From an uncultured bacterium (GTDB taxonomy: Bacteria; Patescibacteriota; Saccharimonadia; Saccharimonadales; Saccharimonadaceae): DNA of 54,032 bases. Shown piece by piece: positions 34,257 through 54,032 of the stretch. The stretch lies in NCBI GenBank assembly GCA_903900345.1, contig CAIUMO010000029.1, forward strand, positions 1 to 54,032, written 5' to 3'. The notes beneath the pieces are model-generated. The model did no database searches. It was not told the DNA's origin and saw nothing but the letters and a program-made list of their open reading frames with translations. A program made the translations under genes and the position numbers. Every line of letters starts with the position of its first letter. Positions within the stretch are counted from its first letter, which is position 1.

Positions 34257-35330
34257 ATGGAACAGACAATTCTTTGGGTTTTATTGGTAGTAGTAATCGC
34301 TGGTTTTAGTCTGGCTTTTTATATGTTAAACCAGAGATTAAAGGATCTAAAGAATTCTAGCGCTGTTGAGTTGCTTAAAAGTGATGTCACTGAGCTGGCG
34401 CGTGGCATAAATAATCTGCAACAGACAGTTGGCAATAAGCTTGATCAAAACAACACAACGATGCAAAATTCAATGCAAAAGCAGCTCAGTGAGAGTGCTA
34501 AATTAGTGGCAGATGTTACTCAAAGACTGGCAAAACTGGACGAAACCAATCGACGCGTGGTTGATGTGGCTGATGAGCTTAAAACGCTTCAGAATGTCCT
34601 ACAGAACCCTAAACAACGTGGTGTATTTGGTGAATACTATTTAGAGTCGGTTCTTGATAATATTTTGCCTAGCAAAAATTATCAGATGCAATATAAATTT
34701 AAAGACGGCGAGATTGTTGATGCAGTTGTTTTTTTGGATAAAGGCCAAATTTTGCCGATTGACAGTAAATTCAGCCTTGAAAACTACAACCGCATGGTGG
34801 GTGAGGACAAAAAGCCAGAACGCGAGAAATTATTGGCGCGAGTCCGAACTGACCTAAAAAATCGCATTGACGAGACTAGTAAATATATTCGTCCAAGTGA
34901 AAAAACGATGGATTTTGCTTTTATGTTTATTCCTAGCGAATCGCTTTACTACGATTTACTAATTGGCGATGTTGGCACTGGATCAAGTGCGCGTGACTTA
35001 ATCGAGTATGCCTTTCGCGATAAAAAGGTGATTATTGTTAGTCCGACTAGTTTTATGGCCTATTTACAGACGGTTTTGCAGGGTTTGCGTAGCTTGCAGA
35101 TCGAAGAACAGGCTAAGGACATCCAAGTTAGGGTTGGACAGTTAGGGCAACATATCGGTAAGTTCGACGAGTTTATGGGTAAGCTTGGCAAATCACTTGG
35201 CCAAACTGTCGGTCATTATAACGATGCCCATAAAGAGCTTGGTAAGATTGATAAAGATGTAATAAAGATCGCTGGCACTAATCCTGGTGTTGACTCGCTG
35301 CTGCTTGATAAGCCGCAGAGTGATGAATAG
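34257..35330 (+). CDS. rmuC: DNA recombination protein RmuC
   Basis: 357 aa. An N-terminal membrane anchor (about residues 4-23) is followed by a long coiled coil (to about residue 120) and a nuclease-like domain with NPKQRGVFGEYYLESVL, GEIVDAVVFLDKGQILPIDSKFSLENY and AFMFIPSESLYYDLL. The D and K residues around PIDSKFS match the predicted active site of the PD-(D/E)XK-like RmuC family. RmuC limits inversions and recombination at repeats and is implicated in phage defence in some species. Confidence 0.95.
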   Translation: MEQTILWVLLVVVIAGFSLAFYMLNQRLKDLKNSSAVELLKSDVTELARGINNLQQTVGNKLDQNNTTMQNSMQKQLSESAKLVADVTQRLAKLDETNRRVVDVADELKTLQNVLQNPKQRGVFGEYYLESVLDNILPSKNYQMQYKFKDGEIVDAVVFLDKGQILPIDSKFSLENYNRMVGEDKKPEREKLLARVRTDLKNRIDETSKYIRPSEKTMDFAFMFIPSESLYYDLLIGDVGTGSSARDLIEYAFRDKKVIIVSPTSFMAYLQTVLQGLRSLQIEEQAKDIQVRVGQLGQHIGKFDEFMGKLGKSLGQTVGHYNDAHKELGKIDKDVIKIAGTNPGVDSLLLDKPQSDE

Positions 35331-35350
35331 ATTTACTTCAACTTTTAGCT

Positions 35351-35698
35351 AATAGCCCCCTCTCACCTCACGGGTCCTGCCGCTCGGTCCGCCCCTGATT
35401 CTATTTCGGATTACCGAACGTAGAATCGGGTGCTGCCCCGCCTCACGTCACCCGTCTAAGTCTGCTACTTAAGGCCAGGGCCAAGGAGTCGTATTGTTTG
35501 AAATTAGTATTAGACTTTAAGCCTACATCACACTACTACTAAAGACACCCTGGAACCCAAGTCTGACAGGGCGCCGGGGCCCCTGATCAGACCTGGAGCG
35601 AAGCAGTACATTTGATAGGCTGTATGGTGGAGGCGGCAAAGAAGAGGAAGCTAAAGGGTGAAATGGGCGGCAGGACCCGTGGGGTGAGATGGGCTATT
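35351..35698 (+). ncRNA. GC-rich structured element closed by a 30-bp terminal stem (candidate RNA or mobile module)
   Basis: No plausible protein. The first 33 nt (35351-35383) are complementary to the last 32 nt (35667-35698) with few mismatches, so a transcript would close into a long multibranched structure. Internal stems include GTCTGA/TCAGAC with AGGG/CCCT (near 35557-35592) and GATTCTA/TAGAATC (35397-35427). A 13-bp terminator follows. The first 139 nt recur at 53795-53889 minus a 44-nt insert (35396-35439). The segment near 35583-35604 (ATCAG...GGAG...GAAGCAG) resembles domain IV of SRP RNA, but its loop is imperfect and it competes with the neighbouring stem. RNase P and tmRNA motifs are absent. 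Confidence 0.55.
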
Positions 35699-35707
35699 AC
35701 AGAAATA

Positions 35708-35740
35708 AAAATATCCCCGCTTTGGCAGCGGGGATATTTT
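35708..35740. terminator. Bidirectional terminator after the structured element
   Basis: AAAATATCCCCGC (35708-35720) and GCGGGGATATTTT (35728-35740), 13 bp, with one more T-A pair at the top. It separates the structured element on the plus strand from the convergent aquaporin-like gene. Confidence 0.9.
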
Positions 35741-35760
35741 GATCTAGATATTTCTATCTA

Positions 35761-36591
35761 TTATTTAACGTCGCAACATCCACAACTACAGTCGCAACAA
35801 CTATCGCTGGAATTAGACTTCAATAAATCTTGTACGAAGAATCCGATAACGCCACCGATAATTGGGGCAATAACGTAAATCGCAATTGGCCATAGATTAA
35901 ATGACAAACCATTTGCAGCAAGTGCAACGGCTGGATTTAAGAATGATAGGGCGGTATTTGCTTCAGTTAATGAAGTTGATGTTACCCAACCGGCAAACAA
36001 TAATGCGATTAAGACTGCAAATCCGTATGAGAATGCTGATTTTAGATCAGCTTTCTTGACGCGAACTGCTGCAGCTAAACCTAAGCCAAGGATAATTGCA
36101 CCGATGAGCTCTGCAAAGAAGAAGGCCCATTCCTTGCCGCTTGTTACGGTTGCGGCGTGGAACAATACTGAAGCTGTGCCTGCTTCTGTGCTGTGTAATA
36201 ACGTATTTAGTGTCAAATATGCAGCACCTGCTCCTAGTAATTGAGCTATGATGTAGCCTATAGCGTAAACGCTTTTGATCTTTTGTGTTACCCATGCGCC
36301 AATTGTTAACGCTGGGTTAACATAGGCACCTGAAGCGCCACCGAGAATCAGAACGATGCCGGCTAATGCAAACGCTACATATAGCGGTTGACCTTGAACT
36401 GCGAAAACAGCTGCAACAAGCAGGAATGTTCCGATAAACTCTGAGACTAAAGATTTAACTAGTGATGTTACATCTACCTTACTAATAGTTTTACCTTGTG
36501 GTTTAGTAACCGATTCGGTACTGATTGCTTTAACTGTATGTTTAACTTTTGACGATTTATTTTTCGACGAAATGGCGGCTTTAGTGGCCAT
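35761..36591 (-). CDS. MIP family channel (aquaporin-like) with cysteine-rich tail
   Basis: 276 aa. A Lys/Ser/Thr-rich N-terminal extension of about 42 residues precedes six membrane segments and two half-helices with NPA motifs (about residues 92-94 and 219-221). The residue after the second NPA is valine, where classical aquaporins have the selectivity-filter arginine, so the pore may be wider or pass another small neutral solute. The last 18 residues contain seven cysteines (SCCDCSCGCCDVK), suggesting a metal or metalloid site. AAAGGAGGAAAAAAC precedes the ATG, a strong Shine-Dalgarno. Arsenite, glycerol or water could be the substrate. Confidence 0.88.
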   Translation of the reverse strand: MATKAAISSKNKSSKVKHTVKAISTESVTKPQGKTISKVDVTSLVKSLVSEFIGTFLLVAAVFAVQGQPLYVAFALAGIVLILGGASGAYVNPALTIGAWVTQKIKSVYAIGYIIAQLLGAGAAYLTLNTLLHSTEAGTASVLFHAATVTSGKEWAFFFAELIGAIILGLGLAAAVRVKKADLKSAFSYGFAVLIALLFAGWVTSTSLTEANTALSFLNPAVALAANGLSFNLWPIAIYVIAPIIGGVIGFFVQDLLKSNSSDSCCDCSCGCCDVK

Positions 36592-53757: not shown

Positions 53758-53794
53758 GTATTCCTAATCCTGGTTTTATACTACTGTAACTCCA

Positions 53795-53889
53795 TCTCAC
53801 CTCACGGGTCCTGCCGCTCGGTCCGCCCCGCCTCGCGTCACCCGTCTAAGTCTGCTACTTAAGGCTAGGGCCAAAGAGTCGTATTGTTT
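53795..53889 (+). repeat. Second copy of the 5' module of the 35351 element
   Basis: 95 nt matching 35361-35395 plus 35440-35499 with three mismatches, lacking the 44-nt hairpin present in the other copy (35396-35439). The junction lies at a GCCCC repeated on both sides of the insert. Both copies lie just after a plus-strand gene (rmuC and uvrB) and are GC-rich in an AT-rich background. No right-hand inverted arm is found before the window ends. Confidence 0.9.
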
Positions 53890-53906
53890 TTAAGATAATT
53901 TAAATA

Positions 53907-54031
53907 CGTTCAACACCACTTGGTTCAGTGCAGATGGATGCGTAGCGGTAGCGGAGGCCAAGCGCCACGTGCTGACCACTTCGTGGTCACACGTAGAGTG
54001 GCCATCTGCCTGGACTAAGTGGTGGTGAACG
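53907..54031 (+). other. Long imperfect hairpin after the repeat
   Basis: A 15-bp outer stem with one mismatch (53907-53921 with 54017-54031) continues through GCAGATGG/CCATCTGC and ends in a TGACCA-CTTCG-TGGTCA hairpin (about 53973-53989). It has the shape of a structured RNA or a palindromic element. No family recognised; it may continue past the window edge. Confidence 0.6.
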
Positions 54032-54032
54032 G

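Follow-up and report, generated by a model that had tools for sequence, protein, structure and literature searches.

Origin of a structured block between rmuC and an aquaporin gene

The window analysed here, a 54,032-nt stretch of DNA from an uncultured bacterium of the Saccharimonadaceae, contains a strongly folded block between rmuC and an aquaporin gene, raising the question of whether it is an RNA gene or an element that arrived from elsewhere. A sequence-only reading had described a GC-rich structured block, closed by a terminal inverted repeat and followed by a terminator, and had proposed either an undescribed RNA or a non-autonomous mobile element. The features on which the following analysis rests are:

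35350..35699, minus strand (on which the conserved cores fold): whole composite palindromic element, delimited from its arms, orthologues without the block and further genomic copies
35357..35394, no strand: outer inverted repeat, left arm; pairing reaches 35350 in RNA folding
35371..35454, minus strand: core 1, from alignments, covariance models and covariation
35549..35604, minus strand: core 2, an 18-bp covarying hairpin, from covariation and model searches
35655..35679, minus strand: degenerate, inverted version of the left half of core 1, differing from the core-1 pattern at 2 positions, within the right arm
35656..35693, no strand: outer inverted repeat, right arm; pairing reaches 35699 in RNA folding
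35705..35743, no strand: terminator hairpin common to the convergent rmuC and aquaporin genes, assigned to host sequence outside the element
53790..54032, minus strand: second, truncated copy at the window end, with core 1 minus its apical hairpin and a different central module

The 350-nt element lies between rmuC (34257-35330, Pfam RmuC) and the terminator shared with the aquaporin gene (35761-36591, minus strand, Pfam MIP). Its arms, 35357-35394 and 35656-35693, form a long imperfect inverted repeat (38 nt, 82% complementary), with the outermost pairs at 35350-35358 and 35691-35699 when the block is folded as RNA. The GC content is 0.54 compared to 0.42 in the window, a value matched by 1 of 1074 sampled 350-nt stretches, and the fold z-scores are -10.1 on the plus strand and -7.9 on the minus strand, with none of 100 shuffles folding as well as the block on either strand. 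Composition, arms and fold are therefore as first described, or stronger. The truncated copy at 53790-54032 directly follows a uvrB-like gene.

Orthologous loci point to an insertion at this site. Of 23 rmuC loci listed for the genus at full or near-full length, several among the subset readable by script have a tight rmuC-terminator-aquaporin order without the block (L240-L242, L246-L248 and L252-L254), each with a similar hairpin in the same place. Since these loci keep the terminator, the comparison indicates that the block is an insertion and that the terminator (arms 35705-35721 and 35727-35743, 94% complementary) is owned by the host; the hairpin reported after the block is thus real, but belongs to the neighbouring genes. 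In two relatives (L238 and L239) another long palindromic repeat, CATCCTGTTTGTCTGACGCG with its inverse, is found 3' of rmuC.

Conserved cores and their strand

Core 1 is a conserved hairpin interrupted by two internal loops rich in purines, reading CGGGUG-R-CG-N5-CGGGGC..GGGGCGGA-N5-CG-R-CAGGACCCG in RNA orientation, while core 2 follows the pattern GCTTCRCKCCRGGT..ACYTGG..CAGG. The covariation on homologues that had been suggested for this block reveals compensatory changes exceeding the shuffled control in both cores. In 43 core-1 sequences aligned without reference to structure, the three-helix hairpin contains 127 double-changed cells compared to 37 after shuffling (score 0.345 against 0.115, reached by 0 of 500 shuffles), and the support is lost when the pairing is shifted by one to three columns. 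A larger set of 84 copies gives 0.534 against 0.153, in an alignment that was fitted to the model, and core 2 scores 0.283 against 0.108 (0 of 500 shuffles).

The non-standard pairs of core 1 fix the strand. Read on the minus strand they comprise 24 G.U against 4 A.C and 49 G.A against 2 C.U, and one internal R.R pair occurs as A.G in 27 and as G.A in 14 of the 43 sequences. An RNA read from the plus strand was rejected, as the G.U and G.A pairs of the minus strand would there become C.A and C.U mismatches; the single-sequence folding energy of the block favours the plus strand, contrary to this evidence. Such pairs are tolerated both in folded RNA and in folded single-stranded DNA, so they identify the strand and not the molecule.

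The copies are mosaics, with a common core-1 region, an apical hairpin that is missing in some and alternative central modules. Minimal core-1 copies are about 85-140 nt long with inverted ends, whereas the block in the window, at 350 nt, is a composite. The outer arms differ among most copies yet remain complementary, and exact ends can be defined just for a subfamily. One core-1 subfamily (L071, L081 and L123), occurring in more than one lineage, has an outer inverted repeat of roughly ACCTGRRTCTCAAAAC / GTTTTGAGAYTCAGGT.

A dispersed, multicopy family

A DNA search matches the block to many further places in the window's own 0.79-Mb genome. Core 1 is found at 12 places there, at 25 in each of two relatives (G173 and G218) and at 7 to 17 in five others, numbers that were scored with more candidates and that include, in the window's genome, two places on seemingly redundant contig ends. 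The end of contig C7 and the start of contig C17 of this genome (G000) bear near-identical core-1 copies with the same flanks, probably representing one locus.

Within the genus 24 of 28 genomes match the block at least in part. Across the class, covariance model R1 is positive in 60 of 295 genomes and 14 of 129 genera, a lower bound given its strict filters, and a broader model, R2, finds one to four copies in each of nine sampled Patescibacteria genomes outside the class; those out-of-class examples that were aligned retain the conserved loops. The exact core-1 pattern occurs in 72 stretches among 84,980 GTDB genomes, mainly from Saccharibacteria or unnamed bins and some titled Nomurabacteria. 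Most of the single matches in other groups are missing the second half of the motif, and these probably arose by chance. No matching record among the same 84,980 genomes is titled Rickettsia or Wolbachia. Nor is the pattern present in viral contigs. Sampling was of one genome per species, so that recent jumps would not be directly visible.

No Rfam family, including SRP, 6S, HEARO and raiA, reaches its gathering score in the block, and across the window, the block itself and 20 related loci tRNAs alone do so. A low-threshold scan of 35300-35780 returned six sub-threshold matches, all on the terminator hairpin and none inside the block. The covariance-model search thus gives no significant match to a known RNA family, and the resemblance to SRP domain IV that had been noted is not borne out, the SRP model finding no match. 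On sequence grounds the block is a copy of a dispersed modular repeat family rather than a single-locus non-coding RNA. The proposal of an undescribed RNA holds in part, in that there are two covarying RNA-like cores on the minus strand without an Rfam match, but there is no sign of a dedicated non-coding RNA gene.

Insertions inside conserved protein genes

Of 84 core-1 copies with genomic context, 56 are intergenic and 28 lie within ORFs of at least 100 aa, with no fixed orientation. Genes identified by Pfam that contain core-1 insertions are those for tRNA-guanine transglycosylase (TGT), CysRS, TyrRS, TopA, DnaX, QueA, Obg, a PBP, RsuA-type and FtsJ-type proteins and PriA, while core 2 is inserted in the genes for TopA, MnmA, AlaRS and DnaX. 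Both orientations occur in genes, several core-1 copies running antisense to their host. In TopA a single site, at about residues 394 to 422, is occupied by core 1 in one species (L171) and by core 2 in a second (L027). As ORF calls that span an insert select for open frames, such cases alone are no proof of a constraint on frame, for which the TGT site is better suited.

In one Saccharibacteria genus a TGT search gave matches in 111 of 118 genomes. One TGT loop is a hotspot for palindromic inserts there: among 50 fetched orthologues (L267-L316), 28 carry inserts in it that are 100 nt or longer, the remainder having short loops, some of them scar-like. All 28 inserts are free of stop codons in the frame of the gene, whereas in the remaining sense frames only 4 and 0 are open, a count that does not derive from the way in which the loci were extracted; the multiple-of-three lengths (50/50) are in part built in, since both flanks were required to lie in one frame. 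Ten of the inserts are confident core-1 matches, including one antisense copy, and the remaining inserts are different palindromes that fall into several families by eye, a number that was judged and not computed. BLAST clustering merged all TGT inserts into one group, probably via palindromic and shared flanking matches. In a structure model of TGT, of low confidence and built from a shallow alignment, the insert appears, again with low confidence, as a loop that joins a helix to a strand. One TGT pair (L280 and L312) hinted that the arms might be target DNA copied in inverse orientation, but this reading was not adopted, as the 'empty' sequence resembles a deletion scar.

The stop-free frames of all 28 inserts favour translation over removal from the mRNA, the TGT insert probably adding a loop peptide to the protein. 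If the genic copies were instead removed or skipped, as a self-splicing intron or translational bypass element would be, their presence in essential genes and their compact RNA fold would be readily understood, but a frame kept open in 28 of 28 TGT inserts, against 4 and 0 in the other frames, would be unneeded, and genic copies occur in both orientations. We therefore regard splicing or bypass as barely conceivable.

A probable mobile element and its possible mobilisation

Taken together, the dispersed copies, the occupied and empty orthologous sites, the insertions both between and inside genes and the frame-kept TGT inserts provide sequence support for a mobile element, as do the inverted-repeat ends and the variable place and orientation; of the two original proposals it is the non-autonomous mobile element that gains. 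Most probably, the block is a copy of a small non-autonomous palindromic mobile element family of Patescibacteria that works in a manner resembling the palindromic elements of Rickettsia. Each element would be a long hairpin built of modules (core 1, core 2 and others), folding on one strand and exposing conserved purine-rich internal loops. An enzyme encoded elsewhere may recognise this folded single strand, either DNA or RNA, via the two conserved loops and place a copy at another site. The fold would then be conserved because only copies able to fold spawn new ones, and genic copies would persist only where the frame is kept and the loop is tolerant. The fold is conserved although copies lie at unrelated places, in both orientations and in different host proteins, and we can explain this most simply by an enzyme that recognises the folded strand in trans. 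More tentatively, these may be a new class of Patescibacteria elements in which a folded strand with conserved loops is the transposition signal, and several unrelated families may share hotspots in essential genes, adding peptides to core enzymes.

The same fold might be expected of a host non-coding or cis-regulatory RNA, such as a riboswitch-like element, an attenuator or an mRNA-stability element, that is multicopy by chance, and the strong covariation, the unvarying unpaired purines and the G.U and G.A pairs specific to one strand would suit such an RNA well. Its neighbours and orientation would not be expected to vary as they do here, where the upstream gene presents its 3' end to 32 intergenic copies and its 5' end to 23, several genic copies are antisense and orthologous loci differ in the presence of the block. 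A host RNA is therefore unlikely.

Mobilisation in trans could take more than one form, and the search for a transposase partner covered IS630-type DDE_3, TnpB and Y1 proteins. IS630-type DDE_3 is found in none of the R1-positive genomes, and TnpB above the cut-off is essentially absent from them. Y1 transposases of the RAYT type, which would mobilise REP-type repeats as single-stranded DNA hairpins, fit the strand-specific fold, and a RAYT-like gene is encoded by the window's own genome and by several relatives. Against this, the gene is not associated with the elements among the 295 genomes, where 11 of the 60 positive ones carry it (Fisher p 0.72), the two 25-copy genomes (G173 and G218) lack any Y1 match, and none of ten RAYT loci has a core-1 match, the flanks that were read bearing their own, different short palindromes; RAYT mobilisation thus appears very improbable. 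Those short palindromes, for example GAAGGACGGACCTTC among the RAYT-like Y1 genes L326-L334, are unlike the element studied here. The RNA-like fold could alternatively serve as a SINE-like template copied by a reverse transcriptase, and there is a weak association with PF00078 (27 of 60 positive genomes compared to 65 of 236 others, Fisher p 0.012). This association is confounded by shared ancestry, and PF00078 finds no match in the window's genome, despite its 12 copies, or in most element-bearing relatives in the genus, which makes RNA-mediated copying quite improbable. Reverse transcriptases occur in 92 of 295 class genomes, with up to five matches per genome and many of about 330-430 aa, and are possibly part of diversity-generating retroelements. 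For the preferred reading, a non-autonomous element mobilised in trans, comparison of sites, which included no very close pair of empty and filled loci, revealed no consistent target-site duplication. With many sites, empty orthologues and a defined folded core, the way in which such palindromes move is directly testable, and the covariance models allow recognition of inserts that could otherwise be mistaken for non-coding RNAs or lineage-specific protein loops.

Comparison with known repeat families

Like REP and BIME sequences associated with RAYTs, the element forms dispersed hairpins in a genome that encodes a RAYT, but it is longer than the 20-40 bp REP palindromes and has no association with the RAYT. 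BOX elements of Streptococcus pneumoniae are modular mosaics of repeat units with RNA-like structure, and in both respects resemble the present family, although they come from an unrelated lineage and, to our knowledge, have not been described as in-frame gene insertions. Bacterial MITEs (Correia/NEMIS, RUP, ERIC and YPAL) are short non-autonomous repeats, mostly with inverted ends, and some are fused to genes in frame (PMC2229807). The present elements differ in having no parental transposase among the types searched (Y1, TnpB and IS630), no consistent target duplication at the sites compared and a conserved single-strand fold.

Our search of the open literature, with most subscription journals outside its coverage, returned no description of such elements in these bacteria, and the family, in the ultra-small Saccharibacteria and some other Patescibacteria, appears to be previously unnamed. 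The best-known palindromic repeats that code for protein are those of Rickettsia and Wolbachia. The Rickettsia palindromic elements (RPE) and the protein-coding palindromes of Wolbachia are hairpins of about 100-150 bp with inverted-repeat ends, found between genes and in frame within conserved protein genes (PMC2229807). The elements described here share the short hairpin, about 105-146 bp long in RPE, the inverted-repeat ends and the occurrence at intergenic sites as well as in frame in conserved protein genes. They differ in their hosts, in their covarying cores with invariant internal loops, in forming modular composites of about 350 nt and in that one gene loop carries inserts of clearly different kinds. 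We therefore propose that they work like RPE rather than that they are RPE, a likeness drawn from the published description. The presence of a similar family in Saccharibacteria and other Patescibacteria, whose genomes are streamlined, suggests that palindromes of this kind may have arisen independently in reduced genomes, reshaping core proteins.
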